Shown here in pieces: positions 877-15,344 of a stretch of DNA of 64,000 nt; the stretch's first letter is position 1, and every line of letters begins with the position of its first letter. The stretch is from the NCBI RefSeq assembly GCF_900114605.1, contig NZ_FOTP01000006.1:248001-312000 (forward strand). Direction: 5' to 3'. Below the pieces are notes generated by a model. That model had not been told where the DNA came from and made no database searches. It saw only the letters and a list, made by a program, of their open reading frames with translations. The DNA comes from Bradyrhizobium sp. NFR13 (GTDB lineage: Bacteria; Pseudomonadota; Alphaproteobacteria; Rhizobiales; Xanthobacteraceae). A program made the position numbers and the translations under genes.

Positions 877-2351
877 CGCCTAGCCTGCCCAACTTCGCCC
901 AACGCTGACTGGAGCGCCGAGAGGAGAGCGGCGTTGGCATCCATCAACTGCCGCCGGCTGTGATCGTAAGCACGGGTCAGTTCATCCAGGCTGCGTTCAT
1001 CGACGTCCGGCTTGAACGGATTTGGGATGTCCAAATTGTACCCGCGGGCCTTGATCTCCTCGATACCCACCTTCCAACTGCACGGAGTCTGCTTCCTCCC
1101 GCGCCGCGCCGCATCTCCCCACCACGCCTTTTCCGCGTCAAACTCTTCAAGCCGGATCGGGCGAGATTTCGAGTAATTCTTATAGCCGTCGGGATAGGGG
1201 TGTTCGTAAAACCAGACTTGCTTGGTCGGTCCGGTCTTCTCGAAAAACAGAAGGTTAGTCTTGATGCCTGTATATGGATTGAACACGCCATTCGGAAGGC
1301 GAACGATCGTATGCAGGTTGCATTCCGTTAAAAGCTTTTCCTTTATTCGGGTCTTTGTGCCCTCGCCAAAAAGCGTTCCATCGGGGAGCACGACGGCAGC
1401 GCGCCCACCATCCTTGAGAAGCTCGATGATTAAAACAAGGAACAGATCAGCGGTTTCGCGGGTCTGGAAGAGTTGCGGTACGTTACGCTCGATTCCATCT
1501 TCCTCGATCCCGCCAAACGGCGGATTGGTCAGAATGACATCCACCTTCCTGCGAAGAGGATGATCCTTGATCGGCTTGCTAAGCGTGTTGCCTCTAACGA
1601 TATTGGTCGGGCTTTCAATCCCATGCAGCATCATATTGGTGGTGCAAAGTAGATGCGGGAGAGCTTTCTTCTCTACACCCCTGATTGACGACTGAAGAAT
1701 CTCGTAGTCGTTCTCACCACTTACGTATAAGTCGGTCTTGTGATCCACAGCGCAGGCTAGAAATCCGCCAGTGCCGCAAGCAGGATCGAACACGATGTCC
1801 GCCAGTTTTGGATCAAGCATTTCAACCATGAACTGAGTCAAGGCACGAGGGGTGTAGAATTCCCCGGCATTACCGGCGCTCTGAAGATCACGGAGGATCT
1901 GCTCGTATAAGTCGCCAAAGGTATGCTTGTCGCCCAGATTATTGAAATCGATCCCGTTTATCTTGTTAATAATCTGGCGAAGCAGTGTTCCCGACTTCAT
2001 GTAGTTGATTGCGTCCTGAAAGACACCGTGGACCACAAGGGCGCGGGCGCGCTCCGGCACATCAAGGCTGATGTTTTTGAGACTCGGGAAAAGCTTGTCA
2101 TTTACGAACGACAGCAACTCGTCGCCCGTTATGCCCTCAGGGTTAGCAGCCCACGCCGACCAACGGAGATCTGGCGGCATCGGCGAACTGTACTGATCGT
2201 CAAGAAGGGCAAGCTCCTCCTCCCGGTCGTCGAAGATCTTGAGGAAGAACATCCACACGAGTTGCCCAATACGCTGTGCGTCTCCGTCTACGCCGGCATC
2301 TTTGCGCATCGTGTCTTGGATAGCCTTAAGGGCGCTCGATACATCCGCCAT
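873..2351 (-). CDS. hsdM: Type I restriction-modification methyltransferase subunit HsdM
   Basis: N6-adenine DNA methyltransferase of the type I complex; with HsdS it methylates the host's own sites. The 492-aa length is normal for the family. An N-terminal HsdM_N helical domain (residues 1-150) is followed by the SAM-binding motif FDPACGTGGFL (about 188-198) and the catalytic NPPF motif in TNPPFGG (276-279), the signature of the gamma-class N6-adenine enzymes. The start ATG lies two bases after the hsdR stop and the end overlaps hsdS, so hsdR-hsdM-hsdS is one tightly packed operon. No key residue is missing and the enzyme looks functional. Confidence 0.96.
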   Translation of the reverse strand: MADVSSALKAIQDTMRKDAGVDGDAQRIGQLVWMFFLKIFDDREEELALLDDQYSSPMPPDLRWSAWAANPEGITGDELLSFVNDKLFPSLKNISLDVPERARALVVHGVFQDAINYMKSGTLLRQIINKINGIDFNNLGDKHTFGDLYEQILRDLQSAGNAGEFYTPRALTQFMVEMLDPKLADIVFDPACGTGGFLACAVDHKTDLYVSGENDYEILQSSIRGVEKKALPHLLCTTNMMLHGIESPTNIVRGNTLSKPIKDHPLRRKVDVILTNPPFGGIEEDGIERNVPQLFQTRETADLFLVLIIELLKDGGRAAVVLPDGTLFGEGTKTRIKEKLLTECNLHTIVRLPNGVFNPYTGIKTNLLFFEKTGPTKQVWFYEHPYPDGYKNYSKSRPIRLEEFDAEKAWWGDAARRGRKQTPCSWKVGIEEIKARGYNLDIPNPFKPDVDERSLDELTRAYDHSRRQLMDANAALLSALQSALGEVGQARR

Positions 2352-2353
2352 AA

Positions 2354-4684
2354 TCAGGCCTCCGCGTAAATTTGAGACTCAAGCTCGCGGACCGCGGCCT
2401 GATATTGATCCTTGCCCCCGAAGACACGTCGAATGATCTCGACCGGGGTGCCAATTTGGTCAAACGGTTTCAGGTGTAGAATCTTGCCGCTTTCCAACGC
2501 GACGCCGTCATCGTCGGCGTATTTGTCAAGAAGCGCGTAAAGGACCGCGCGGGCGCTTTCACCATATGCGGCAAAGGGGCTGCGATCTCGCACACGAGCC
2601 GCCCTCTCCTTCCGCGTCAGGAGTGGCCGATCAAACGCAATGTGGCAGACTAAATCGAACGCGTCGTATCGAGCACCGTCCGGCGCCTCCTCGCGGAGTG
2701 CCTCTAGCGGAATACCAAGTTCCTCCACCTCATTCAGGACAGCCTGTTTACGATCGGCCTCTGACCATCGAGCGAGAAAACTTCCCAAAGTAAGATACTT
2801 GTCCTGGAGCTTTCGCTTTACGTAGGCGCTCAGTGCCTCCGTAATCAGCTTACCTTCTGCGTCCAGATACTGGACACGGCGCGCCAGAACCTCAACTTCA
2901 ACTCCGTCGATGTAATATTTGCGTGGCTGGAGAGAGCTGCCCAATTGCTCGACTGCGTCCCCTGCCGGATCACCGCCATCGAATTCAGCCTCGAGCTCCG
3001 CGAGATCGCTTTCGATCTCAGGTTCGAAGATCTGCACGGGGTCACCATCAAAGGCAGGATCCGCGAACAGCTCCGTAGCGCGCTTGAAGTCCATGATCGT
3101 GAAGAAACGCTTCCCGTGTGCTTCATCAATTCGCGTTCCGCGACCAATGATTTGCTTAAACTCAGTCATAGACTGAATGCGCTGGTCAAGCACGATCAGC
3201 TTACACGTCTTGACGTCAACGCCAGTGGTCAAAAGCTTCGATGTCGTGGCGATCACGGGATAGGTGGAATAGGGATCAATAAAGTTATCGAGTTCGGCCG
3301 TCCCGGAAGAGTCGTCTCCTGTCATTCTAACTACGTAGCGGTGATTGTCCGCGACAAGATCCAGATTCGCATTGGCGAGTTCCTTTCGCATGCGATCCGC
3401 ATGCTCCGTGTCTTCGCAAAATACAATGGTTTTCCCAAAACGGTCGTTGCCCTTTAGAAATTCTGTGATCTTTTCCGCAACCAACCTCGTGCGCGGATCA
3501 AATACAATCTTAGTATCGACATCACTCTGGCCGTAGATACGGTCTTCTACCTCGTGCCCGAACCGATCGATCGTTCCGGCCTGCGGACGGTAGCCGGTAA
3601 GATCCAGATCCAGGTCGTAGCGAATGACCTTGTACGGTGCCAAAAAGCCGTCTTCGATGCCCTGGCGCAGCGAGTACGTATAGATCGGCTCTCCAAAGTA
3701 ATCTGTATTGGAAACGTCGGCGGTCTCCTTAGGTGTCGCCGTCATTCCGATCTGTGTTGCGCTGCTGTAGTAGGTGAGAATTTCCCGCCACCCCGAGTCC
3801 TCCGCCGCGCTTCCCCGATGGCATTCATCGACGATGATAAGGTCGAAGAAATCGGGAGAGAATTGCTTGTAGATATTCTGTTCGTCGGTAGTTCCCGAGA
3901 CAGCCTGGTAAAGAGCAAGGTAAATTTCATATGACTTATCGACTTGCCGGTTTGCTACCTTCGTCATCGCACCCCCGAACGGGGTGAAGTCGTTGCCTTT
4001 GGTCTGATCCACTAGAATATTTCTGTCGGCCAGGAACAGGATTCGTTTCTTGGCTCGGGCCTTCCAAAGCCGCCATATGATCTGAAAAGCCGTATAGGTT
4101 TTTCCGGTGCCGGTTGCCATAACAAGCAAGATGCGATTTTGGCCATTTGCCACGGCCGTAACTGCGCGATTAACGGCCGTCGCTTGATAATAGCGTGGAG
4201 AGCGGCCGTCGGCAGCTGCATGGTAATTCTGTTCGACAAGCCGCGAGGCTTCGGAGTCGAGGCCCTTCCATGTTTGATATTTTGCCCAGAGCACCGCTGG
4301 GCTCGGGAAGGCGTCCATCTCAATTTCACGTTCAAGCTGCCCGGTCGTCGCGGTCTTGTCATGAAAAACGAAGCGCACACCGTTTGATGAAAAAACGAAT
4401 GGCACGTCCAGCATCTCGGCGTAGCTCAAGGCCTGTTGGATGCCTGCTGCAGCGCTATGCGTGGCATCTTTGGCTTCAATTACCGCTAATGGGACATTCG
4501 CACGGTGATACAGAACATAATCGGCTCGGAGTTGTCGTCCTCGTGTGGACAGCTTTCCACGCACGATGACGCGTCCATCCGTCAACGTGACCTCTTCTCG
4601 AAGCTGCGTGTTTAGATCCCAGCCAGCCGCGATCACCGCGGGGGTGATGAGCTTTGTGCAGATATCTCGCTCGCTAAGACTCAA
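2354..4684 (-). CDS. hsdR: Type I restriction endonuclease subunit HsdR
   Basis: Motor and nuclease subunit of the type I enzyme; it translocates DNA using ATP and cuts away from the recognition site. The 776-aa protein has an N-terminal PD-(D/E)xK nuclease domain (D55, then E70 and K72 in VIEAKD), a Walker A motif ATGTGKT (about 190-196), a DECH box (286-289), the SAT-equivalent TATPKE motif, and a second RecA-like domain with QIIGRGTR. The C-terminal part resembles the EcoEI-type HsdR C-terminal domain. It is shorter than EcoKI HsdR but within the range for EcoEI-like subunits. It lies 42 bp downstream of the serine recombinase gene and may share its transcript. Confidence 0.95.
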   Translation of the reverse strand: MSLSERDICTKLITPAVIAAGWDLNTQLREEVTLTDGRVIVRGKLSTRGRQLRADYVLYHRANVPLAVIEAKDATHSAAAGIQQALSYAEMLDVPFVFSSNGVRFVFHDKTATTGQLEREIEMDAFPSPAVLWAKYQTWKGLDSEASRLVEQNYHAAADGRSPRYYQATAVNRAVTAVANGQNRILLVMATGTGKTYTAFQIIWRLWKARAKKRILFLADRNILVDQTKGNDFTPFGGAMTKVANRQVDKSYEIYLALYQAVSGTTDEQNIYKQFSPDFFDLIIVDECHRGSAAEDSGWREILTYYSSATQIGMTATPKETADVSNTDYFGEPIYTYSLRQGIEDGFLAPYKVIRYDLDLDLTGYRPQAGTIDRFGHEVEDRIYGQSDVDTKIVFDPRTRLVAEKITEFLKGNDRFGKTIVFCEDTEHADRMRKELANANLDLVADNHRYVVRMTGDDSSGTAELDNFIDPYSTYPVIATTSKLLTTGVDVKTCKLIVLDQRIQSMTEFKQIIGRGTRIDEAHGKRFFTIMDFKRATELFADPAFDGDPVQIFEPEIESDLAELEAEFDGGDPAGDAVEQLGSSLQPRKYYIDGVEVEVLARRVQYLDAEGKLITEALSAYVKRKLQDKYLTLGSFLARWSEADRKQAVLNEVEELGIPLEALREEAPDGARYDAFDLVCHIAFDRPLLTRKERAARVRDRSPFAAYGESARAVLYALLDKYADDDGVALESGKILHLKPFDQIGTPVEIIRRVFGGKDQYQAAVRELESQIYAEA

Positions 4685-4726
4685 CGACCCGCGCCCCCGT
4701 CTTTACCACAATTCATAGAACGCCCC

Positions 4727-5311
4727 TCAGCCATCAGTGATTTGGCCAAGCGAACTGCGACCACCAGGAATGTGACGGTACAGGGTCGAGGGTTGCACGC
4801 CTATCTGCCGGGCGACTTCCTCCACCGTAACGCTCGAATCCATCAGCATTGCTTTGGCGCGCTTGATTTCTGAAGGACCCATGGCTGGTTTTCGGCCACC
4901 ACGGCGACCGAGGGCCTTGGCCACGGCTAGTCCCGCACACGATCGCTCTAGAGTGAGCTCCCGTTCAAACTCAGCTACTGTCTCGAATACACGAAAGATG
5001 AGTTCCCCATCCGCTGCGTCCGTGTCGAGCTGCTGGGTTAGAACCTTCAAGCCCACATGACGCCGCCGGAGATCGGCCAACGTCTCAACCAGCTGGCGAA
5101 CGGAACGCGCCAATCGATCAAGCTTCCATACGACCAACGTGTCTCCGCTTTGGATCGTTTGGAGTGCAGCCTTCAATTCGGGCCTGTCTCTTTGGACGCC
5201 CGATGCCTTCTCGACAAAGACCGCTGCACAACCAGCCGCTCTCAAAGCATTGAGCTGGACACCTGGCGATTGATCGCGGGTTGAAGCGCGCGCATAGCCG
5301 ACGAACACCAA
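4727..5311 (-). CDS. Serine recombinase (resolvase/invertase family)
   Basis: Site-specific recombinase of the resolvase/DNA-invertase family, 194 aa, the usual size for TnpR and Pin/Hin proteins. The catalytic serine is S10 in GYARASTRDQ; the conserved LDRLARS arginine patch (about residues 64-70) and an EFERELTLERS helix with further active-site arginine follow. The C-terminal 45 residues form an HTH_7 DNA-binding domain (VEEVARQIGVQPSTLYRHI). No transposase gene accompanies it, so it is not part of an intact Tn3 element. Immediately upstream of hsdRMS it could be a remnant of the element that carried the locus, or an invertase acting on nearby DNA. Which reaction it catalyses cannot be told from the sequence. 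Confidence 0.93.
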   Translation of the reverse strand: MVFVGYARASTRDQSPGVQLNALRAAGCAAVFVEKASGVQRDRPELKAALQTIQSGDTLVVWKLDRLARSVRQLVETLADLRRRHVGLKVLTQQLDTDAADGELIFRVFETVAEFERELTLERSCAGLAVAKALGRRGGRKPAMGPSEIKRAKAMLMDSSVTVEEVARQIGVQPSTLYRHIPGGRSSLGQITDG

Positions 5312-5622
5312 ACGTACTCCGAGAACTCATCTAACGATGAACCGATTCGGAGACTGAAACAAGAGACAGTATTAGGAGGGTGCCCGCGCTAGTCCGCCAA
5401 TCCTTAACCAAGGATTTTCGTTGGCATGGGTGGACCGCCGTGGTGTCATAGTTTCCGTTGCCCGCCCATACCGGCAGCCGGCAGCTCGCGCCCTCAGCGA
5501 ATTGCCATGAGATGTAGATCCACGCCCGTCGGAGACCGCCCCGAGCGGGTTGTCACGATCATGGTCCCCAGCAAATTCAGGAGGGCGCGTTGACGCTAGG
5601 CCACACATCTCCTCAAGCCCAG
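5312..5622. other. Non-coding stretch upstream of the serine recombinase
   Basis: No convincing gene is present. The stretch lies between the recombinase start and the end of the XRE gene. A 78-codon minus-strand open frame at 5372-5608 has arginine-rich, out-of-frame-looking composition and no family resemblance. For a resolvase, the res recombination site usually sits directly upstream of the gene, so this is where a res or inversion site should be sought; no clear set of paired 12-bp half sites could be recognised by eye. Confidence 0.4.
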
Positions 5623-5847
5623 CTAGCGTCTAGTCCGCGCGGGCGGCTGCAGCAAATCCAGGTGGTTGACCCCGAGAGCCTTTGCCAACTCGTAGAGCGT
5701 GACGACCGTAGGGTTACGGCGACCAGTCTCAAGGCCGCTTAGATACTGTTGGCTAAATCCCGAGATTTCACTGAACTGCTCTTGCGTCAGGCCCCTTTCA
5801 AGCCGGATTCGCTTGACGTTTTGAGCGACCAATCTGCGCATGTCCAT
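5623..5847 (-). CDS. XRE-family helix-turn-helix regulator
   Basis: Small (74 aa) Cro/CI-type DNA-binding protein consisting essentially of one HTH_XRE domain: NVKRIRLERGLTQEQFSEISGFSQQYLSGLETGRRNPTV carries the standard helix 2-turn-helix 3 pattern, with LYELAKALGV as the fourth and fifth helices. A TTG start at 5886 would add a hydrophobic stretch not expected in this family, so the ATG at 5847 (MDMRR) is preferred, though no clear Shine-Dalgarno is visible. It is divergent from the gene at 5920; the perfect 8-bp palindrome ACTATAGT at 5886-5893 lies between them and is a possible autoregulatory operator. The base composition is noticeably more AT-rich than the core regions of the window. 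Confidence 0.85.
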   Translation of the reverse strand: MDMRRLVAQNVKRIRLERGLTQEQFSEISGFSQQYLSGLETGRRNPTVVTLYELAKALGVNHLDLLQPPARTRR

Positions 5848-5919
5848 GCGCAGAAGAAAAAGGATTACATATTCTAAGTTTACCAACTATAGTATGTACA
5901 TCGGAGACATGTTGTTGAG

Positions 5920-6315
5920 TTGACGGTAATGGGATTCAAGCCCGACTATGGCTTACGCCTCGTTGCGGAGGGAATACTCTCCACGGATGAGCTTTATTTC
6001 AAAAGTTTCCACGCATTCAGCGTAACTATCCTGGGCGACGCTTCTTATACCACCGTAGTGGACGCAACATACGAGGGCGCGCTGCATGCCCTCTCCCTTG
6101 ATTTCAACCGGCATCAACTGGATCAAATTTTGGCCAAAGCGGGTCTGTGGGTCACCGCACCATTTTGGGCAGACTTCCATCGGGATCCAGTGTCCGCGCG
6201 ATCAATCGACCTAAAGCAAGGTGTCGTCTTTGGCGTTCGAGCGCGATTGGGACAGTTGCAGAAAGCCGAGAAAGAAGCGTTCGTGCCTTTGATAGCGCAT
6301 GAGATTTTTCAATAA
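5920..6315 (+). CDS. Hypothetical protein divergent from the XRE regulator
   Basis: A 131-aa protein of no recognised family, read from TTG at 5920 or ATG at 5929 (127-128 aa). The composition is balanced, with alternating hydrophobic stretches (AFSVTILGDASYTTVV; LWVTAPFWADF) that suggest a folded alpha/beta domain and no membrane segment. Codon use is consistent with a real gene though poorer in G/C than the surrounding chromosome. It is divergently arranged with a small XRE repressor, a layout seen in regulator-target and toxin-antitoxin pairs, but nothing in the protein identifies a toxin. The function is unknown. Confidence 0.6.
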   Translation: MTVMGFKPDYGLRLVAEGILSTDELYFKSFHAFSVTILGDASYTTVVDATYEGALHALSLDFNRHQLDQILAKAGLWVTAPFWADFHRDPVSARSIDLKQGVVFGVRARLGQLQKAEKEAFVPLIAHEIFQ

Positions 6316-6386
6316 TGCGCATGCCGATGAAGCTGTGAAGACAACCATTGAGAGCTGTTGAGTGAGTCCGGCTCGAAGCCCAAGGC

Positions 6387-6539
6387 TTAGTCTCTTGCGA
6401 CTTCGGCAATGAGCCGCTGGATGGCTTCAATGGTAATCGTGCCAAGCACCAACTCGATTTCTTGCCGGTAATAGTAAGCGTCGAGCGGCAGCGGGGTGCG
6501 AGGTGCTGGTTTAAGATTTGCGGCATTCGGCGATCGCAA
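6387..6539 (-). pseudogene. Short 50-codon frame, probably a gene remnant
   Basis: A minus-strand frame bounded by TAG upstream and TAA at 6387-6389. From TTG at 6539 it would give about 50 aa. The residues PLPLDAYYYRQEIELV followed by a TITIEAIQRLIAEVARD helix look strongly protein-like (amphipathic helix, good codon use), in contrast with the overlapping 140-codon frame. There is no ATG or Shine-Dalgarno, and the upstream side is abruptly closed, so this reads as the C-terminal remnant of a longer gene rather than an intact small gene. The family is not recognised. Confidence 0.4.
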
Positions 6540-6615
6540 TGTCTAAGGCATTGCTCAAAGCATACTAGTGGCATTGGCGGATAGTAAATGACTGTGTCAC
6601 GCGCGCGCGCCTACA

Positions 6616-6634
6616 TTTTGCTGTGACAGCAAAA
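6616..6634. repeat. 19-bp perfect palindrome in a decayed intergenic stretch (6540-6850)
   Basis: Between the remnant at 6387 and mcrC is about 310 bp without a credible gene. It contains TTTTGCTGT-G-ACAGCAAAA (6616-6634), a perfect 9-bp inverted repeat around one base. Two direct copies of TGTGCCAGCC lie nearby (ends at 6672 and 6693, 21 bp apart), and TGGACGCT occurs twice around 6716-6733. Multiple short repeats of this kind resemble the ends of IS21-like elements, or an operator region upstream of lost genes. No transposase frame is left. Confidence 0.55.
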
Positions 6635-6850
6635 CATGGCCTTGGCCAGCTAAATTAGCCCTTGTGCCAGCCGGCTGGACTTCTGTGCCAGCCCAGAGAA
6701 CTAAGTGGACGCTCCATTGGACGCTATAATCCCGGGGAATTCTGTTAAGTTGGATCACTGACATCGGGCCGGTAAGCAAACCGACTATGCCGAACTTGCT
6801 GGATTTCGCTGCCTCGGGAGCCAATCTCGTCAAGCCAGGTTCTGACCCCC

Positions 6851-7942
6851 TCAGTCTCCATCCTGAGCGATGGAGTGGAGCCGGTCTAAGATCTCGGAAG
6901 GTTTAAGAGCCAAATCGACAGTGACGAACCGGATATCATGGCCCTGGATGGTGAATGTCTCATCCACGTCATGGTCTAGCGCCGGATAGAGCAGCACGCC
7001 TTCTGCCCTGTCGCACAGGTGTCCGCGGCCCCGCTGGGAGTGGAGATAAGCGTATATCTGATAGATGTTGGCGCTTTTGAACCTGTCCTTGTCGGCAATG
7101 CCTTTCGCGAGGATGCTAGTGAACTTGGTATCAATGACGATTCTGCGGTCCTGCTTTCTGTCCAGGATTATGTCAGGCTTCATTCCCGGCAACAGGGCCA
7201 CATCGCCAGATCGGCCCGGCTCCAGCTGCCAGCTCTGATAATTCTGCTCACGCACGGACCAGCCATCGGCGGCTCGCAAATGATGCCGATAGAACCCCGT
7301 GACCGCCTTCTCGAAGATCTTCCGCAGGGTGATCTCGTCCCGCTTGAGCCGCGACAGTTTCATGTCAGCAGCTGTTTCGTTCGGCAGCAGCGTTTCAAAC
7401 ACGAGCCTGGCCGCGCTGATCATGAGACGGTCTTCGGATTGATGGCTTCCGATCGTGTCTGCGGACATCTCCTGCTGGGTCGGCCGTGACGCTGCAATGC
7501 CCAGCCGCCCGAGATCGTCACTGAGCCGGCGACAATCGGCGGCGACGGCACGATTCCTTATCCGGCCGGCGATTGCAATGAGCGCGCAGCGCACCAGCCG
7601 GTTTCGCGGCGTGTCGAAGGACAGTTCCTCGAACCGGCATGAAAGGCGGCCGCGCTGCAGATGCAGGCGCGATAGCGTCTGAAGCCAGTCCACACGTCCC
7701 CTGACCCGTGGAATGACGGCTTCCCTGCGCTGAAAGCCGCGTGACAAATTGGTCTTCAGTCGCCGCTTGACCAACTTAACGAGCAGGCGGCCGAGAATAT
7801 CGGCCAGCTCGATGTCATCATCCGTCCCGGCGCCGCACTGGCTCTCGAACTCGGCGAGACCGGATGCATAGACGAACAACAGCCAGAGATTCCGGATCGG
7901 GATGCCTGCTTGGCTCCGCCAGACCTGATCGGACATCTGCAT
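6851..7942 (-). CDS. mcrC: McrC-type nuclease subunit of a McrBC restriction system
   Basis: Endonuclease partner of McrB in modification-dependent restriction; McrBC systems cut DNA carrying modified cytosines. The 363-aa length fits McrC. The N-terminal half carries the McrB-binding region; the PD-(D/E)xK nuclease core is visible as MKPDIIL (D257) followed by VIDTKF (D271, K273), where the family's usual E/D-x-K is D-x-K. It starts six bases after the mcrB stop, so the two are co-translated. The catalytic residues appear intact. The modified base recognised cannot be inferred from McrC. Confidence 0.92.
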   Translation of the reverse strand: MQMSDQVWRSQAGIPIRNLWLLFVYASGLAEFESQCGAGTDDDIELADILGRLLVKLVKRRLKTNLSRGFQRREAVIPRVRGRVDWLQTLSRLHLQRGRLSCRFEELSFDTPRNRLVRCALIAIAGRIRNRAVAADCRRLSDDLGRLGIAASRPTQQEMSADTIGSHQSEDRLMISAARLVFETLLPNETAADMKLSRLKRDEITLRKIFEKAVTGFYRHHLRAADGWSVREQNYQSWQLEPGRSGDVALLPGMKPDIILDRKQDRRIVIDTKFTSILAKGIADKDRFKSANIYQIYAYLHSQRGRGHLCDRAEGVLLYPALDHDVDETFTIQGHDIRFVTVDLALKPSEILDRLHSIAQDGD

Positions 7943-7948
7943 CCGTCC

Positions 7949-10153
7949 CTAAAGGCTGGCCTGCAGAGTTTTGACATGATCCTCCGCCTTCTGCTTGGCG
8001 TCGTACCAATATTCCATCAGCAGCGGTTTGATCTCGGTCAGGATCACATTGCCGAGCCACGTTTTCCAACGCGCGGCATCCATCTCAGCCGCTGGCGTGA
8101 GAAAGCTGTGACCGACCTTAAATTGAGGACCGAGCGACTGGTCCGACGCAATGGTCTCGTTCAGCACAACTATGGCCTGCCTTATTGCCCGCAGCAGATC
8201 ATCCGGAGCGCCTCGCGCCTTGCAATAGTTTTGCCAGGCAGCTCCAAAATTCGGATCGAGATTCACAAACGCGAAACGGCGCCGCAGCGCGAGGTCGACC
8301 AGCGCCAGCGAGCGGTCGGCGAGATTCATCGTCCCGATGACATAAAGATTTGGCGGTACATGCACCCGCTCAGTCTGCGACGTCGGATATGCCAGCCGGA
8401 GCGCTTCGCTCTCGCAGCGCTTGTCCGCTTCCAGGAGAGTGAGCAATTCGCCGAAGATCTGTGCCGGGTTTCCCCGGTTGATCTCCTCGATCACGAGCAC
8501 ATATGGCCGTCCCGGTACCGCCCTCGCCGCCGCAACGGCTTCCAGGAAGGCGCCATCGACTAGCTGCAAGCCGGTGATGCCGTTGGGGCGGTAGCCGCGG
8601 ACGAAATCCTCGTAGGACAGCGAGGGCTGAAACTGTACAGCCATCAGCCGAGATGCATCCTTCTCCCCCATCAGCGCGTATCCCAGGCGTTTCGCGAGCC
8701 AGGTCTTGCCCGTTCCTGGAGGGCCCTGCAGAACCAAATTCTTCTTCGTCTTCAGCAGGTCGATCGCCTGTTCGAGCGTTGCGCGCTCCAGGAAGCAGCC
8801 TTCGTCAACAATGGCTTCAATCGTATAGGAAGTGCCGGAGCCGGTCTCTTCCACGATGATTTCGGGAGCCCCCTCATCCAGTTCCTCAGCCGAAGCATTG
8901 ATCCTCCAGCGCTCCTCAAAATCCCGCGGAAGGGCGGACACATATTCCTCACCGTCATCTGTCAAATAGAGGCGGTTAACGCCCTGGACAATTTCGGCTC
9001 TCACAAGACCGGTGACCCTAGCCCACGCGATGATGTGGGACCCCGGCATGGTCGTGGTCCAAGTCGGCACCAGCGATTGTAGCCATTTGGCCGCGTCGGT
9101 CGTCCCCATCCCCTCGGAGCGCCGTGACAGCTGAAGCAGCAGATGCCCCATGCCGAAGACACGACCGACTAGAGGCCCGCGCAGCACTTCTGCCGGTTCG
9201 TTCGCGGACAGCAGTTCCAGGCCGCGTTGCGTCGGCCGGTACGCCCCGTCGACGAGATGGATGAGTCCCAGTCCGCCTGTGGCCTGTGAGATCACATTGG
9301 CCGCGCTGTTTGTATTCAACTGCGGGGCTTCCGACAGGATGACGCTGGCGAGGTCGTCCCGTGCAATCCCATTCTCCGCTTCTCGGACGACGGCCACGAA
9401 CACGCCGACGGCCCCCTTCATGCAGGCCAGGCTTCGCCGTTGCGCGGTTACGGGCAACAGCGATAAGGGCGGTATGTCGCTTGCCTCGGGTTGTGGCGCC
9501 TCGACCGTGACCGCTCCTTCGTCGGGGCGATTCAAATACCTATTCCAGAGAAACCATGCGAATATCGATTGGTCGACCTCACCGGCGATGTCAGGAGCAT
9601 TCCCGACCGCATCGCGAATCCGCTGGCGGAGCGCCGGGTGTTGGGCGATGAAGTCACCAATCAGTCGCGGCGCAGCGATCAGACGCTGGGTTGCCCATAC
9701 CCTGTTGGCATCCATCAGACAGGTCATGTCGCGTGGAAACATCGCGGCCATCAACCGAACCAAGCGCGCTTTCGGCCTGCGCTTCGCGTGAGCCGGATAG
9801 ACCCTAGCCAGAACATGATCAAACATGTCCTGGAGCTTTTTTCCGCGCTCAGCGACATCGCTGCCGATGGGGGTGTCCCTGAGCTGAAGAAGCTCACGCG
9901 AGATCGCGACGTCGGAATACGCCCCTTCCACTGTGACCGAAGTCCCCGGCCCAATGTTGGAGATTGGATTCTCGTCCCAGAGCCTACGCTGAAATGCTGG
10001 ATGGAGCCACTGTGCCTCGTCTACACTCTTCACCAGTTCGACATGGGCGGCGTATTTGTGCCGCCACTCCACCGCCCACGGCTCCTCTCGGTAGGTGCGA
10101 AACGGCCCGTTGAACGCTTCGATCAATGCCTTGTCGTCGAATGAATCAATCAT
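7949..10153 (-). CDS. mcrB: McrB-type AAA+ GTPase of a McrBC restriction system
   Basis: AAA+ motor that recognises modified DNA and drives cleavage by McrC. The 734-aa protein has a long N-terminal region (1-430) without the DUF3578 domain of E. coli McrB; it includes a stretch near 235-410 that looks like two winged-helix segments related to Mrr_N-type domains. The AAA+ module follows: Walker A GPPGTGKT (477-484), Walker B VIEEINRG (554-561), the McrB hallmark TMNLADRS (608-615) and an LRRRF arginine cluster. The different N-terminal region implies a different DNA or signal specificity from the classical enzyme. The start ATG overlaps the stop of the upstream frame (ATGA). Confidence 0.93.
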   Translation of the reverse strand: MIDSFDDKALIEAFNGPFRTYREEPWAVEWRHKYAAHVELVKSVDEAQWLHPAFQRRLWDENPISNIGPGTSVTVEGAYSDVAISRELLQLRDTPIGSDVAERGKKLQDMFDHVLARVYPAHAKRRPKARLVRLMAAMFPRDMTCLMDANRVWATQRLIAAPRLIGDFIAQHPALRQRIRDAVGNAPDIAGEVDQSIFAWFLWNRYLNRPDEGAVTVEAPQPEASDIPPLSLLPVTAQRRSLACMKGAVGVFVAVVREAENGIARDDLASVILSEAPQLNTNSAANVISQATGGLGLIHLVDGAYRPTQRGLELLSANEPAEVLRGPLVGRVFGMGHLLLQLSRRSEGMGTTDAAKWLQSLVPTWTTTMPGSHIIAWARVTGLVRAEIVQGVNRLYLTDDGEEYVSALPRDFEERWRINASAEELDEGAPEIIVEETGSGTSYTIEAIVDEGCFLERATLEQAIDLLKTKKNLVLQGPPGTGKTWLAKRLGYALMGEKDASRLMAVQFQPSLSYEDFVRGYRPNGITGLQLVDGAFLEAVAAARAVPGRPYVLVIEEINRGNPAQIFGELLTLLEADKRCESEALRLAYPTSQTERVHVPPNLYVIGTMNLADRSLALVDLALRRRFAFVNLDPNFGAAWQNYCKARGAPDDLLRAIRQAIVVLNETIASDQSLGPQFKVGHSFLTPAAEMDAARWKTWLGNVILTEIKPLLMEYWYDAKQKAEDHVKTLQASL

Positions 10154-10623
10154 CTCGTTAGCCTAGGTAGGTTGCTAGTACAGTGGCCCGTTTCTAACGT
10201 TACATTCCGCGCCATGGACTGCAGATGCAGCACTATTGTTTTCCGCGTCTGTGCTCCGAAGCCTGTGGCGAGCCTTTGCACGTTTGGCGCGGCGGCGTTG
10301 AGCGCTTCCTTGGGTGGTGGTGTGTGCTTCAGCTCCTGCAATCGCGCCCAGTCTCTCTCGCGTTCGCACGGGACTGCAGCTCCGACGACGCCACCTTCTA
10401 TCGCTTTTTTAGACGCGCGAGCCTTGATGAGAAGGTTACGTTCTTCGTGATTGATCTCGTTCACGGTGGCCCCCTTGGTCCTGTCTAGCACCAACGTCGC
10501 TGTTTTGGGATCATACAGATAACAATGATCGTTCCGTCCCTGATCCGGTTCACCGCTTCGTTGATGACGAACAGAGGGACAAGAAACCATTCGCGCGGGA
10601 TAACCTCCGCCAAACCCGCTCAT
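10150..10623 (-). pseudogene. Probably frameshifted gene upstream of mcrB; possible GIY-YIG-type nuclease remnant
   Basis: The open frame encodes 157 aa from an ATG at 10623 with a good Shine-Dalgarno (GGGAG, 5 bp upstream) and ends in ATGA overlap with mcrB. Its first 45 residues look out-of-frame (ARMVSCPSVRHQRS...). In the neighbouring frame the same DNA (10613 to about 10525) reads LAEVIPREWFLVPLFVINEA and then VNRIRDGTI, which is far more protein-like. It joins the main frame at YLYDPKTATLVLD (from about 10521). A single indel between 10521 and 10530 would explain this. The REWFxVP pattern and following region recall the C-terminal part of T5orf172-type GIY-YIG proteins, but no GIY-YIG core is present upstream. 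Sequencing error is an alternative. Confidence 0.5.
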
Positions 10624-10663
10624 TCATTCTCCCCTGCCCAAATTGCAATCAGTAGTATATACG

Positions 10664-10867
10664 ATGGACGGAGGGGCGGATGACAACGAGAATATGGGGC
10701 GCGCTGGGCTACTACCTGCCTTGATTGGTCTCACCGGTTGGTGCACCTATAAGTGGCCGGTCCTCGCGGGAAAGGGCATCATGCTCAACGCCGGCACAAT
10801 CGTCGCCGTCTTCGGCCTCTACCTGCATTACGCCGGCCTCATCAACCCCTCGCGGGAGCCGCTGTGA
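10664..10867 (+). CDS. Small membrane protein preceding the CarD-domain gene
   Basis: A 67-aa protein (ATG 10664; a TTG at 10643 would add seven residues; a further ATG lies at 10694). Two hydrophobic segments are visible, LLPALIGLTGW (about 15-26) and IMLNAGTIVAVFGLYLHYAGLI (39-60), so it is probably an inner-membrane protein with two short passes. The family is not recognised. Its stop codon overlaps the next gene's ATG by one base (TGATG), so the two genes are translationally coupled. It is divergent from the frame at 10150-10623 with about 40 bp between, which must hold both promoters. Confidence 0.6.
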   Translation: MDGGADDNENMGRAGLLPALIGLTGWCTYKWPVLAGKGIMLNAGTIVAVFGLYLHYAGLINPSREPL

Positions 10868-11811
10868 TGGGCATCCGCGACTGGCTGGGCGGCAACCGCG
10901 GTGGCCTCAGCCGCGACATCCAGGAACTGATGAATCCGCTATTGGCTTGGCGGCCGGTTCACTTCGTGGCGTTCCCCCGAAACGAGGACGGCTACGTGAG
11001 GCACTACTTCCTTTACCTCGACAAGGAAGGCGTCCGAAACGAGTTCGTCGTCTTCCACCATGAGACCGCCGGCGGCCTCGAGCAGCAGCACACGGCGTAC
11101 CGCAAGGCTCCGGGAGAGGCCTATGTCCTGTTGAGCCAGCGTGGCCCCTGGTCGATGGCTATTGGTCACTTGACGGATCTCGGCCGGACGAACCCGAGGA
11201 ACACGCAGTCCGCTGAGGGCCATCACGTCCTCGGAGTGTCGGTTGGAAGCCGCCGACGAGAAGCGGCGCCAACGCCGCCACCAGAGCCGGAGCCAAAATC
11301 GCGACACGAATGGCAGCGAACGCCACCGCCGGATCAAGAGCCTGAGCAGCCCGACGAGCCTGACGAAACCGCTGAGTTAAACCTCGAAGGCTTCGAGGTC
11401 GGTCAGGGGATTCACTTCAGGCCGTTTGGGCTGAGGGCGACGATCGTCGATATCGAGAAGTTCGATAGCGAGTACGGCGACACACACCGCTTCGTCATTG
11501 AGTTCGACGATTGGGAGACCGATATGCGAGTACCGGTCTCGCGCTTGCAGGATCTGATCGCTCTGGCTGGTGTCGATGAGAAAGAGGAGGATGAGGAGCC
11601 AGTGCTCGAACGGAACGGCTTCCGAGTCGACGAGCATGTGGTCTACCCCGAGCACGGCGTCGGCAAGATCCTCGCCATCGAACAGCAAGACATCGCCGGT
11701 GCGAAGCTCGAGGTTTTCGTCATCCATTTCAAATCTGCAAACATGACACTGCGGGTGCCCACGGCGAAGGTCGGCGATATCGGGATGCGGCGGCTGGAAG
11801 ACGAGCTTTAG
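10867..11811 (+). CDS. Unknown protein with C-terminal CarD/RID RNA-polymerase-binding domain
   Basis: A 314-aa protein; the ATG at 10867 overlapping the upstream stop is preferred over an in-frame upstream codon at 10753, whose extra 38 residues lie inside the small membrane gene. Residues 1-125 form a domain of unknown family; 133-168 is a proline- and glutamate-rich linker. Residues 174-230 (FEVGQGIHFRPFG ... MRVPVSRL) look like a divergent RID fold. Residues 251-310 are a canonical CarD-N/RID domain: VVYPEHGVGKILAIE, then DIAGAKLEVFVI and MTLRVPTAKVGDIGMRRL, nearly matching housekeeping alphaproteobacterial CarD. The protein ends there, so CarD's C-terminal DNA-binding domain is absent. 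The RID domain of CarD binds the RNA polymerase beta subunit; a transcription-directed role is inferred. Confidence 0.85.
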   Translation: MGIRDWLGGNRGGLSRDIQELMNPLLAWRPVHFVAFPRNEDGYVRHYFLYLDKEGVRNEFVVFHHETAGGLEQQHTAYRKAPGEAYVLLSQRGPWSMAIGHLTDLGRTNPRNTQSAEGHHVLGVSVGSRRREAAPTPPPEPEPKSRHEWQRTPPPDQEPEQPDEPDETAELNLEGFEVGQGIHFRPFGLRATIVDIEKFDSEYGDTHRFVIEFDDWETDMRVPVSRLQDLIALAGVDEKEEDEEPVLERNGFRVDEHVVYPEHGVGKILAIEQQDIAGAKLEVFVIHFKSANMTLRVPTAKVGDIGMRRLEDEL

Positions 11812-11890
11812 TGTTCTGGGCTGTGCAGCAGGGGCACGGAATGCGCGGCACGCGAGATCGATGAAACAAAAACAGAGCTGTGATCTGTCG

Positions 11891-12169
11891 TTATAAAACC
11901 CGTTTCGACAAATCGCGGACCAGGCGAGTCGCCTCACGCACCCAACTACGGATCGCCGCGACTTCTTTGGTGTAACGTCCATGCCGATAATTGCCGTTGC
12001 GGCTACCGGTGGGTGCCCCACTGCCATCCGCGCCACCGTGCATTCGGCACCTCCGCCGGCCGGTCACCGGCGCCGACTTGCACGGGGCGCCTGACCTAGT
12101 GCGAGCCCCGCACTGTTGGCTTTTTGACACAGATCCTGTCTCAGTTAGACGCATGGGGTTGTCCGTCAA
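11891..12169 (-). CDS. HGG-motif small basic protein (HGGxSTG-like family)
   Basis: A 92-aa basic protein with CGARTRSGAPCKSAP near residues 20-34 and CRMHGGADGSGAPTGSRNGN near 41-60, followed by YRHGRYTKE. The spaced Cys, Cys, Cys and His residues suggest a small metal-binding knuckle, and the HGG...GAP...NGN...HG order matches the family annotated as HGGxSTG-domain proteins, frequent in rhizobial mobile elements and prophage-like regions. Its ATG overlaps the stop of the 241-aa gene upstream (12166-12169), so the two are translationally coupled. The molecular function of the family is not established. Confidence 0.82.
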   Translation of the reverse strand: MTDNPMRLTETGSVSKSQQCGARTRSGAPCKSAPVTGRRRCRMHGGADGSGAPTGSRNGNYRHGRYTKEVAAIRSWVREATRLVRDLSKRVL

Positions 12170-12891
12170 TTTTCGTCTCCTCCCCGTTGTCCGCCTTTTT
12201 CCTGGTTTACAATTCCGACCACCCCCTGTGCACCGGGATGGATGTGGACGTGCTTAACCACGATGGACTGGCTGTTTCCGCGCCGGTGCCGGTTGAGGGT
12301 TTGGAGCACGTCGCTCTGGAGTCTGAGCAGCCGGTTGGCGTAACCGCCGTAGACCGCGATATTGACCTCGCCAAGATGCCGCTGGCTGAGTTCCAACATG
12401 CGCAGGGCCGAGAAGCCGGCGACCACGGCTTGTACGGCCATAAGGGCCTCGATTTCTGACGCCGGCTTCAACGAAGCGACAGTGGCAAGTGCGGCATTCA
12501 GGGTTGCCTCGGCAAGAATGTCGTGGGCATTCGGGCGGAGACCGGAGATAATTTTACCCATCATGGTGTCGGCGAACTCTTCGGAAAGCGTACCGAACGT
12601 GGCACGCAACCTAGCACGGTGATATTCGAGATCGGCCGTAGGCGAGTGAATAAGGTCGTGAGACGCAGACGGCTTTCGAACCCTTGGCGGCTTTTTACGC
12701 TCATCGTCGTCAAGCGAGGGTTGAACTGGTCCCGGCAGGTCGGTCGCTTGCAGGGAAACTGGAAGCCGCTCCGTTGTTGCGACAGCGGCCCATGCGGCAT
12801 CGCCGCCCCTTATCCTCGATTTCATAGTGGTCTTTCTCGGTTTGCCTTCGGATTCTCGGCGCACGGCGGCCTTCCGCCCGCTGCCGATCAA
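12166..12891 (-). CDS. Conserved mobile-element protein of unknown function
   Basis: A 241-aa protein read from 12891; a second Met at residue 23 (12825) is an alternative start. The first 80 residues are basic and probably disordered; residues 85-200 are strongly helical (ATFGTLSEEFADTMMGKI; ALMAVQAVVAGFSALRMLEL), ending with LLRLQSDVLQTLNRHR and a VVKHVHIHPGAQ segment. The helical core and its strict pairing with an HGG-motif protein resemble gene pairs repeatedly found in alphaproteobacterial integrated elements. A terminase-small-subunit-like or packaging-accessory role is conceivable but not supported by a motif. It lies 46 bp downstream of the replication-like gene and is probably in the same operon. 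Confidence 0.72.
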   Translation of the reverse strand: MIGSGRKAAVRRESEGKPRKTTMKSRIRGGDAAWAAVATTERLPVSLQATDLPGPVQPSLDDDERKKPPRVRKPSASHDLIHSPTADLEYHRARLRATFGTLSEEFADTMMGKIISGLRPNAHDILAEATLNAALATVASLKPASEIEALMAVQAVVAGFSALRMLELSQRHLGEVNIAVYGGYANRLLRLQSDVLQTLNRHRRGNSQSIVVKHVHIHPGAQGVVGIVNQEKGGQRGGDEN

Positions 12892-12937
12892 TAGTCAGCG
12901 GTATGCAGTCGCGCATGACGGCGCGACGCTGATCTCA

Positions 12938-13771
12938 TCATGCTGCAGCTCCGTTCATTGCTTTAAGGAACTTGAGACGCATCTCTGCGAGTCCGGCATC
13001 GTTCAACTGGCCCCGCTGCTCTAGCTCCAGGAAATCGTTGAGTGAGCCATCGTCGTCTAGGCTTTGAAGGATCTGCCATCCGTCGCGGCCAAGGCGCTGT
13101 GCGACGGCGGCCTGCAGGAGGGCGAGGTGATCGTTGCCCGCCGCCCCGCTCGCTTCGGCGCCCCCTGACGGGCGCGCTTCGCGGGGCGTCTGCTTGGCAG
13201 TATCGATCCGAGATATAGAGGTAGTGATGGTTTTTGCCACATTTGTAGTGATGGTTTCCATCACTGGCAAAACAGGCTTTCGGTGCCGGTTTTCGTCACT
13301 GGCAGACGGCATTTTCCGCCATCGGCTTTGTGTTTTTTTAGTCGCCTTTTCCTTCCTCGCGTCAGCAGCGATCTGCTCCGCCTCCTCGACCGTCGCTATC
13401 CGCCGCCATTCGTGAGTCCCATCGCCAGGCAGTCCGTCTGCATCCCGATACGTCAGACGGAATAGGTTCGCTGCGCGGTGCTCGGCATTCCCCGCACGCC
13501 CCTTTACCGTCACCACAAGCAAGCCCAGGGCTACAGCCTCGCGGATGCCTGGCGCGATGGAGTGTCGATGAATGCCGTACTCGTGGAACTGATTGAATGT
13601 GACCGGCAGCCTGCCATTGTCGTTACCGCCGTGGTGCGCATGCTCGATCTCAATGCGGTCAAGCACGCGACGGCAAGACAAGCTCGCTACCATCCAGGCC
13701 GGAGATTCGATCATCTCCACCAGATGCGCAGAGAATTGACCGCTTATTTTGTTGCGGCGCCGCTTCCTCAT
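12938..13771 (-). CDS. Replication-like or winged-helix protein of an integrated element
   Basis: A 277-aa protein starting at ATG 13771, which overlaps the stop of the preceding 82-aa gene (ATGA); a TTG at 13867 would add 32 arginine-rich residues and is less likely. Residues 1-120 (KISGQFSAHLVEMIESPAW, CRRVLDRIEIEHAHHGG, GIREAVALGLLVVTVKGRAG) have the pattern of phage and plasmid replication-initiation winged-helix domains that ask about gene content at chromosome-like copy number. The middle is charged and linker-like, and the last 60 residues form a second helical domain. It may act in replication or regulation of the element; this is inferred from fold pattern and context only. Confidence 0.65.
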   Translation of the reverse strand: MRKRRRNKISGQFSAHLVEMIESPAWMVASLSCRRVLDRIEIEHAHHGGNDNGRLPVTFNQFHEYGIHRHSIAPGIREAVALGLLVVTVKGRAGNAEHRAANLFRLTYRDADGLPGDGTHEWRRIATVEEAEQIAADARKEKATKKTQSRWRKMPSASDENRHRKPVLPVMETITTNVAKTITTSISRIDTAKQTPREARPSGGAEASGAAGNDHLALLQAAVAQRLGRDGWQILQSLDDDGSLNDFLELEQRGQLNDAGLAEMRLKFLKAMNGAAA

Positions 13772-14016
13772 GCGTGCTCGCTCGGCGCGGTCATGACTGT
13801 ATGCCACGGGGCGGGACGGATGACCTCGCAGTTTCCAGAGGCGCCGGGCTCGTTCGCGTGGTGCCAAGAGAGGTTGTCGGCGTCGTCGCCGCTGCCAAGG
13901 AGCTGGCTCGCACCCGACACCGGAAATCGTTTGGCATGAACGCTTGACTTGCGATGCCTATCTACGACCTCGCGCTCGATGCGGTCGCCTTTTGGGCAAT
14001 ATCCATGCCCGCACAT
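13768..14016 (-). CDS. Small Cys-containing protein coupled to alpA
   Basis: An 82-aa protein whose ATG (14016) follows the alpA stop by one base and whose stop overlaps the next ATG by four bases. The coupling on both sides and the G/C-rich third codon positions support a real gene. The N-terminus MCGHGYCPKGD has two Cys and a His that could form part of a small metal site; the rest is polar with no membrane segment. The family is not recognised. It would be missed if the start inside alpA (14058) were used. Confidence 0.5.
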   Translation of the reverse strand: MCGHGYCPKGDRIEREVVDRHRKSSVHAKRFPVSGASQLLGSGDDADNLSWHHANEPGASGNCEVIRPAPWHTVMTAPSEHA

Positions 14017-14017
14017 A

Positions 14018-14230
14018 CTAGGCCCCACCTGTATCGATGAGTTTGCGGATGTCTTCAACGCGCCACGCGGTGATGCGCGGCCCCAGTTTGACAGGCTTAG
14101 GAAACGTCCCCGCCTTGACCTTGCGCCAGAGCGTCGCTGACGAGAATGGGAAGATCGCCGGGATCAATTGAGATTGGCGCATGTAGCCGGTGACCGGCAT
14201 CGCGCCGTAAGTTTCGGGGTTTGTTGCCAT
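14018..14230 (-). CDS. alpA: AlpA-family regulator / excisionase-like protein
   Basis: A 70-aa MerR-like winged-helix protein of the AlpA family: an LIPAIFPFSSATLWRKVKAGTFPKPVKLGPRITAWRVEDI core is the standard AlpA pattern (recognition helix ATLWRKVK, wing with PKPVKLG, then AWR). AlpA proteins act as transcriptional activators or excisionase-like factors of integrated elements. The start is well supported by AGGAGG about 9 bp upstream of the ATG at 14230. As the first gene of the coupled series 14230 to 11891 it probably controls expression or excision of the element. The recombinase it would assist is not in the window. Confidence 0.9.
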   Translation of the reverse strand: MATNPETYGAMPVTGYMRQSQLIPAIFPFSSATLWRKVKAGTFPKPVKLGPRITAWRVEDIRKLIDTGGA

Positions 14231-14332
14231 GTCGCGTGACCTCCTGAGCTAGGTTGCTGCGACATGGACAAAACAACGACTCGCCGGCCGGATGGCGCAA
14301 TTGCGGAACCGAAATGCGCAATTGCGCAGCTG

Positions 14333-15169
14333 CTACTTATTACGCCGATCTAAGGCGTCGGGAATTAGCTTCAAATGGTTCTGGATAGTTCGAGAAGAGA
14401 CTTCGGCGCCCATAAGAGCGGCCTGATTTTCAATGGCCGTACCGGCCTTGGCTGGCTTTGTCACGTCGATCTTGGCCAACCGAGCCAGAGCAGCGATGAT
14501 AATAAGCAAGGTGTTGCGCTCGCGGCGTTCGAGCGGCTTTTCAACTCTCGCGTCGGGCTCGGACAATTGCGATTCAAGCTCTTGCAGCGCGGAGGTTCGG
14601 ACAACAAGAACGCTATCAGCAGGAAGGCCACCGGCCGGATAGTAATTGTCCCGATGGTTCCTCGGCGTTTCCAAGCTTCCTGGGTCCATGAATTCGTTAT
14701 TTGAAAAGTGCGATTGTAGTTGGCAGTGCGTTCCGTCTTCGCGAGACACGATGGGCCCATCTAATAAAATGAGCTCGACGGGCGGACCGCCAGTCAAAAG
14801 TTGATATTGATGCTCAACGTCAAGACGCTCGGCACCGCACATCGTCAGATCCCAGACGCCAACGATAGCTACGACTTCCTGATCGCGCTCAAATACTTGA
14901 TCTTCACCGATCCTGACCCCTTCGAGCGCGCTTACAGATCCGCCGCCATCAAGCAATGGGATCGAAGTACGCCTCGCGTCCCCGAAGGAAACCACACGCC
15001 CGCAGCGGCCTCTTGTGTGATTTATGAAGTTGACCGACAGGGTCAGGTGTCCGTCCAACGCGAGCCGTAACACGTCAGCTTCGGCAACATTTTCCCCAAA
15101 CAGGATACTCAGGTGGCGAGCGGCGTCTGCGACGGTCAGCCATTCCTTTAAATTGAACAGCTTTTTCAC
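14333..15169 (-). CDS. Hypothetical protein at the tRNA-proximal end of the island
   Basis: About 278 aa from GTG at 15169; the longer frame from 15229 adds a Cys-rich segment that looks non-coding. The N-terminus KLFNLKEWLTVADAARHLSILFGENVAEADVLRLALDGHL reads as a degenerate helix-turn-helix followed by a beta-rich middle. The C-terminal region (RNTLLIIIAALARLAKID, then a SRTIQNHLKLIPDAL helix) resembles the short helical domain often seen in proteins that adjoin integrases in proteobacterial islands. The function is unknown. It is the last island gene before the tRNA, in the position normally held by an integrase, but lacks any tyrosine-recombinase motif. Confidence 0.75.
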   Translation of the reverse strand: MKKLFNLKEWLTVADAARHLSILFGENVAEADVLRLALDGHLTLSVNFINHTRGRCGRVVSFGDARRTSIPLLDGGGSVSALEGVRIGEDQVFERDQEVVAIVGVWDLTMCGAERLDVEHQYQLLTGGPPVELILLDGPIVSREDGTHCQLQSHFSNNEFMDPGSLETPRNHRDNYYPAGGLPADSVLVVRTSALQELESQLSEPDARVEKPLERRERNTLLIIIAALARLAKIDVTKPAKAGTAIENQAALMGAEVSSRTIQNHLKLIPDALDRRNK

Positions 15170-15254
15170 TTTGCAGAACCATCCGGCCGTTGATGGGTTG
15201 CACGATGGGTGTGACCCACAAAAATACAATTACTTAAACGATTTCAATGGTCTA

Positions 15255-15275
15255 TGGCGGAGAGAGTGGGATTCG
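15255..15275. other. Putative attachment-site core at the tRNA-Ser 3' end
   Basis: The T-arm/acceptor 3' portion of the tRNA is the expected crossover segment for the element occupying bases 1-15254. The assignment is by context: foreign-looking genes begin within 90 bp of the CCA end and housekeeping genes begin on the other side. The matching direct repeat that would mark the other end is outside the window, so the boundary is not proven. Confidence 0.5.
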
Positions 15276-15344
15276 AACCCACGGTACGGTTTCCCGCACA
15301 CACGCTTTCCAAGCGTGCGCCTTAAGCCACTCGGCCATCTCTCC
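15255..15344 (-). tRNA. tRNA-Ser (anticodon GGA)
   Basis: A 90-nt tRNA read on the minus strand from GGAGAGA at 15344, with a 7-bp acceptor stem closed by TCTCTCC, discriminator G and an encoded CCA at 15255-15257. The D arm GGCCGAGTGGCTTAAGGC, the anticodon stem ACGCT/AGCGT with GGA at 15308-15310, a long serine-type variable arm and the T arm GTGGGTTCGAATCCCAC are all present. Its 3' end points into the island, the usual orientation for insertion of integrative elements, which regenerate the tRNA. Confidence 0.98.

Follow-up and report, generated by a model that had tools for sequence, protein, structure and literature searches.

A CdnL-like RNA polymerase interaction domain on a mobile defence island of Bradyrhizobium: a candidate docking adaptor

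Introduction

A 314-residue protein encoded on a mobile defence island of Bradyrhizobium sp. NFR13 ends in an RNA polymerase interaction domain (RID) that closely resembles that of the host regulator CdnL/CarD. We give about an even chance to the reading that it is an island-borne adaptor, which would place a function of the element on the beta lobe of RNA polymerase. The stretch of DNA analysed (the window) comprises 64,000 nucleotides of contig NZ_FOTP01000006.1 (assembly GCF_900114605.1, positions 248,001 to 312,000, forward strand), and the gene occupies window positions 10867-11811 on the + strand, stop included. An earlier note, made from the sequence of the window, had drawn attention to this gene. 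Its parts are as follows.

10867-11811, + strand: whole gene, encoding an N domain, a Pro/acidic linker, a divergent RID copy, an acidic linker and the RID (open reading frame, translation, relatives)
10867-11226, + strand: N domain, residues 1-120, family unassigned, predicted alpha-beta4/5-alpha (relatives at loci L022, L023, L024, L041 and L042; AlphaFold2 model)
11386-11562, + strand: divergent RID copy, residues 174-232 (profile scores against shuffles; low-confidence model; the segment of the Afipia relative is 41% identical)
11611-11802, + strand: RID, residues 249-312, resembling the alphaproteobacterial CdnL RID
11713-11760, + strand: codons of V283, R296 and P298, RNA polymerase contact positions tested in CdnL (alignment and published positions)

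The start at 10867 is supported by the relatives of the protein, which begin alike; they also end alike, directly past the RID, as the window protein does.

A near-canonical RID without the second half of CdnL

The Pfam family PF02559 (CarD_TRCF_RID) matches residues 252-309 with an E-value of 9.4e-16 (58.1 bits against a cut-off of 23), and is the sole confident Pfam domain of the protein; the one further hit at E ≤ 1 is weak and falls on the linker (E 0.65). The earlier description of residues 251-310 as an almost canonical CarD RID holds, since the segment does not fall to the level of unrelated Tudor-like domains, and the C-terminal RID has the Tudor-like beta fold. The only other match in the host genome is the housekeeping CdnL/CarD, located elsewhere on the contig, which keeps its C-terminal domain and is 58% identical over residues 234-312 and 66% identical over the RID alone. 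Matches to the protein occur in 94 of 101 genomes and, the gene itself aside, all matches listed fall in residues 220-313. The RID is probably derived from an alphaproteobacterial CdnL. When aligned to Myxococcus xanthus CdnL and Mycobacterium tuberculosis CarD, V283, R296 and P298 occupy the positions tested in CdnL as RNA polymerase contacts (positions from passages of PMC4182748 and PMC5324124).

The DNA-binding C-terminus of CarD is missing, as had been noted: the protein stops just past the RID, and the C-terminal domain of the host protein had no tblastn match (E ≤ 1) in window positions 1-15268, in a search whose positive control matched.

Conservation and relatives of the gene

All relatives found for the N domain lie within the same bacterial family: two are intact and RID-tailed, two carry another tail, one is truncated and one decayed. 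A scan of genome contigs gave three of these loci, in Bradyrhizobium sp. STM 3809, a Xanthobacteraceae metagenome-assembled genome (MAG) and Afipia clevelandensis. Whole-genome searches found N-domain relatives in 4 of 391 genomes of the family (host included, with two doubtful rows of six dropped), in 3 of 265 genomes of the genus of G371 and in 1 of 29 of the genus of G244, while searches across the order (397 genomes) and the phylum (398 genomes) gave the host genome as the sole match. The architectures are the following.

N domain, RID-like copy and RID: window protein; Afipia (L022)
N domain and RID: Bradyrhizobium sp. STM 3809 (L023)
N domain and another tail: MAG (L024) and G1213 (L041), with a tail segment 61% identical over 72 amino acids
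N domain, truncated: G1232 (L042)
Decayed, start of N domain and RID: a same-genus genome (L068)

The earlier remark that the first 125 or so residues are of unknown family stands, as residues 1-126 gave no family match in any library tried. Modelled alone from residues 1-119 (AlphaFold2, four alignment rows), the N domain is predicted as alpha-beta4/5-alpha (mean pLDDT 77.6, pTM 0.68), and by eye it may open with an amphipathic stretch.

All three parts of the protein show signs of purifying selection. Comparing proportions of nonsynonymous and synonymous differences (pN/pS), the window N domain gave 0.37/0.85 against L023, 0.45/0.92 against L022 and 0.42/0.81 against L024, the middle part 0.36/0.75 against L022, and the RID 0.20/0.71 against L023 and 0.22/0.91 against L022; because pS is saturated or nearly so, these values are to be read as signs of constraint and not as exact ratios. 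A decaying passenger without present function could account for the broken copy in a sister species, and for the possibly disturbed 5' end of the small gene that precedes ours in the window. Nevertheless, the open reading frame is intact, the contact residues are kept and pN is far under pS in all three parts, and we consider such a passenger improbable.

A tree of 27 rows places the four fused RIDs together on the same side of a branch supported at 76/89. A single fusion fits this grouping and the shared end just past the RID, though it is unproved; the support is modest, no branch is starred, and a long-branch warning applies to rows L022 and L068, which come together.

Two side observations concern the N-domain relatives. 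Both of those with a non-RID tail adjoin a gene of about 200 amino acids without Pfam match (L029:2789-3397 and L064:8248-8859; 42% identical over 200 amino acids), and the two genes possibly form a two-gene unit. The truncated gene of G1232 (L042:2562-3176) has a patatin-like gene on one side and a CAP12-type TIR gene on the other (region of L065:6411-8765).

Proposed docking on RNA polymerase

From these features the following mode of action can be proposed. The C-terminal RID would dock where CdnL and Mfd do, at the beta-1 lobe of the host's RNA polymerase, and would probably replace one or the other there. Because the C-terminal domain of CdnL is absent, the protein is not expected to share the stabilising effect of CdnL on open complexes. 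The RID would hold the N domain at the polymerase, along with the divergent RID-like module, which would serve a different partner. The likely use would be to link transcription complexes to an activity that the element encodes, such as a defence accessory or a means of controlling transcription of the host or the element. Docking is predicted here from sequence, and what the N domain would do at the polymerase is our guess.

Tethering to host RNA polymerase appears the best reading, because the CarD RID module (residues 1-72) alone interacts with the polymerase beta subunit in two-hybrid tests and the CdnL interaction was mapped to a 68-residue N-terminal module (both from passages of PMC4374960). 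The suggestion had been made in the earlier note, which coupled the protein to a small membrane protein. In its favour are a real RID without the DNA-binding half, mobility, contact-suited residues and constraint, but the small protein is not a fixed partner.

Several points weigh against this proposal. V, R and P are also the residues named for Caulobacter CdnL, but that match was taken from residue names in part of the published text and not from an alignment. The contact positions vary in the sister proteins, with T and M at two of the three in Afipia and M at one in Bradyrhizobium, and the R position says little, because R52A kept binding in Caulobacter (a passage of PMC5324124). According to excerpts of the respective papers, CarD mutants that lost binding to the beta subunit stayed active (PMC4374960), and the pairing of CdnL with RNA polymerase can be species-specific (PMC4182748). 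As two of its relatives lack a RID, the N domain does not depend on docking; the family is very small, and the saturation of pS and the modest tree support count on the same side. Each of the three intact RID-tailed genes lies within 20 kb of a tyrosine integrase and close to defence genes, but this defence neighbourhood is plain co-occurrence without a base rate behind it.

A different use of the same site would be competition. The RID could occupy the beta lobe, displace CdnL and Mfd and slow both rRNA transcription and growth, possible roles being that of an abortive-infection effector or of a means to favour promoters of the element. This would agree with a RID for which the CdnL C-terminal domain is not found, with the slower growth of Caulobacter on loss of CdnL (in the relevant part of PMC5324124), and with the report, in part of PMC4182748, that CarDNt binds RNA polymerase yet is unable to substitute for CdnL in M. 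xanthus, as is a CdnL whose C-terminal domain has been swapped. However, a competitor has no need of the N domain, which shows constraint, and it leaves the N-domain proteins with other tails unexplained; moreover, CdnL is not essential in Caulobacter (a passage of PMC5324124), so mere competition might be mild. We therefore hold this alternative to be unlikely.

The middle segment

Residues 174-230 had been described as a second, divergent RID, and this is supported for the family but is weak for the window protein alone. Each segment was excised and compared with a profile built from 20 CdnL RIDs (host and relatives), with 2000 shuffles as control. The Afipia segment reached 17.7 bits against 6.4 for the best shuffle, whereas the window segment, at 6.0 bits, lay under its best shuffle (6.7) and was not significant. 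With profiles including, or made of, the three fused RIDs, the window segment reached 8.8 and 10.0 bits against shuffle maxima of 6.2 and 5.7, respectively. Scores within whole proteins were lower (13.1 to 14.1 bits for Afipia, 2.0 to 5.2 for the window). Structure prediction of the two segments agrees in so far as the window middle segment and the RID share a like strand order, although the model is of low confidence. Both middle copies have Arg at the first contact residue of the RID, and because of this replacement the middle copy may bind another partner, though the RVP motif is kept.

The small upstream gene

A small open reading frame precedes the gene.

10643-10867, + strand: small hydrophobic open reading frame, 74 amino acids from TTG 10643 (ATG 10664 or 10694 possible; relatives in L068 and L074)

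Its stop overlaps the start of the main gene as TGATG. One relative lies in the decayed copy at L068 (tblastn E 0.008); there, in a same-genus genome, a decayed gene pair (L068:2085-2650) retains fragments of the small gene together with the beginning of the N domain and the RID. An intact relative of 62 amino acids, hydrophobic along most of its length, adjoins an Mrr gene in G112, another genome of the family (L074:1435-1623), and near it no convincing match to the RID-tailed protein was found. The small protein was found in 2 of 149 genomes searched, host included, and neither open reading frame lists nor tblastn revealed it before the Afipia and Bradyrhizobium copies. In the window copy the best 19-residue hydropathy mean is 1.56, borderline for a membrane helix. 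The 5' end is doubtful and may be disturbed, because an alternative frame at 10680, which runs for 14 codons to a stop, looks like the first part of the decayed relative. The earlier claim of coupling to a small membrane protein is thus borne out by the overlap and by the existence of relatives, but not as regards a firm membrane helix or a fixed partnership, since the small gene was seen before the main gene in the window and in the decayed copy of the sister species but not in the Afipia and Bradyrhizobium copies.

These two genes could also be read as part of a defence system, in which the N domain would be a sensor or effector, the RID or other tail a localisation tag, and the small hydrophobic protein the killing component. 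All three intact RID-tailed genes have defence neighbours, the small gene overlaps ours, and a relative of it lies beside an Mrr gene; on the other hand, it is not seen before the Afipia or Bradyrhizobium copies and the protein has no PADLOC match (none at E ≤ 0.01 for it or four relatives). We regard this as rather unlikely.

The mobile element and its cargo

The gene was said to lie in a defence island carried by a mobile element, and both statements are confirmed. The element measures 19.4 kb and is inserted in tRNA-Ser(GGA), with a GC content of 0.57 against 0.60 and 0.61 in the flanks and a tyrosine integrase at C14:243992-245230 on the contig. Copies of a 14-bp direct repeat stand at C14:243830, left of the window, and at 263255. 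An empty site, with the left flank running straight into the tRNA, was found in three of five same-genus loci examined (L045, L046 and L047); the other two (L048 and L049) have no match to the left flank. The cargo comprises a SIR2-like protein, HsdS, HsdM, HsdR, a resolvase, McrC, McrB, our gene pair and AlpA, so that a type I restriction-modification system, McrBC and a SIR2-like gene lie inside the element.

Left of HsdM, across the window edge: HsdS (Methylase_S)
873-2351, - strand: HsdM, type I restriction-modification (PADLOC MTase_I, 714 bits)
2354-4684, - strand: HsdR (above the NCBIfam cut-off, 1132.5 against 550)
4727-5311, - strand: serine resolvase (PF00239, E 1.1e-37)
6851-7942, - strand: McrC, type IV restriction (above the NCBIfam cut-off, 390.8 against 338, and PF10117)
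7949-10153, - strand: McrB (place beside McrC, AAA_5, NCBIfam match under the cut-off, 238.8 against 637)
14018-14230, - strand: AlpA-type excisionase/regulator (PF05930, E 8.1e-7; relative beside the Bradyrhizobium copy)
15255-15268: right end of the element, 14-bp direct repeat at the 3' end of tRNA-Ser(GGA) (15255-15344, - strand; repeat, tRNA and empty site)

The SIR2-like protein (PF13289), left of the window at C14:245582-246691 (L039:15582-16691), has modest PADLOC scores (ThsA 48 bits, LmuA 44 bits). Window positions 11891-12169 encode a 92-amino-acid protein with an HGG motif and no Pfam match, with weak PHROG matches to unknown and terminase-small families.

Elsewhere the surroundings are different. 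In Afipia, about 19 kb separate the gene from an integrase that adjoins tRNA-Leu(CAA), and a helicase and a DUF2290 gene stand no more than 4 kb away; the STM 3809 copy stands on a 9.8-kb contig with an integrase, an AlpA relative, HmaA and HmaB nearby. Since these contexts differ from one another and from the window, the gene travels in unlike islands at no fewer than two sites. Among the relatives with another tail, the L041 gene adjoins a serine recombinase and a MobA/MobL relaxase, and tRNA-Met precedes the gene on the MAG contig.

The position of the gene, between the restriction genes and the AlpA end and on the strand opposite to the flanking McrB and AlpA genes, would suit a regulator of the element that recruits RNA polymerase to promoters within the island, the DNA there being bound by the N domain or by a partner. 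But no DNA-binding family was found in the N domain, the relatives come with unlike cargo, and the two islands with a tRNA beside the integrase or at the end (window and Afipia) do not have the same tRNA; such a regulator seems distinctly unlikely.

Comparison with known systems and significance

The protein carries a true RID, yet it is neither a CdnL/CarD regulator nor Mfd. The former was rejected because the protein ends past the RID and the C-terminal helical domain was not found; the latter, a superfamily 2 (SF2) helicase with a RID (Mfd/TRCF), because no helicase model matched at E ≤ 1. With alphaproteobacterial CdnL/CarD it shares a RID 58% identical to that of the host and V, R and P at the contact positions, but here the RID is C-terminal and not N-terminal, an N domain and a second RID-like copy are added, and the gene sits on a mobile element. 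Tudor domains are also carried by the polymerase-associated RapA and by defence helicases such as BrxHII of BREX/BR (part of PMC12839542); our protein lacks the Swi2/Snf2 helicase, and its RID belongs to the CarD sequence family. A text search of PMC12839542, which describes Tudor domains in BREX-type defence helicases, gave no hit for CarD. PcrA/UvrD carry a C-terminal Tudor domain on a helicase, which is absent here, and the present domain is recognised by the CarD/TRCF profile. In its mode of action the protein may come closest to the tether that this C-terminal Tudor domain provides in PcrA/UvrD (a passage of PMC5397179).

In the literature searched, whose coverage is partial, we found no account of a defence island carrying a RID of the CdnL type. 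It is conceivable, though speculative and unlikely, that this is the first RNA polymerase-docking module of bacterial immunity, in which islands would have captured the host CdnL domain to station a new sensor or effector domain, with swappable tails, on the polymerase, and which could there notice or respond to the takeover of the polymerase by a phage. How CdnL, CarD and Mfd dock on the polymerase has been mapped well, and the protein is an easily tested target because its contact positions are established and two-hybrid assays are available. If the adaptor reading is true, mobile defence islands can plug into host transcription by means of a captured docking part joined to an N domain.
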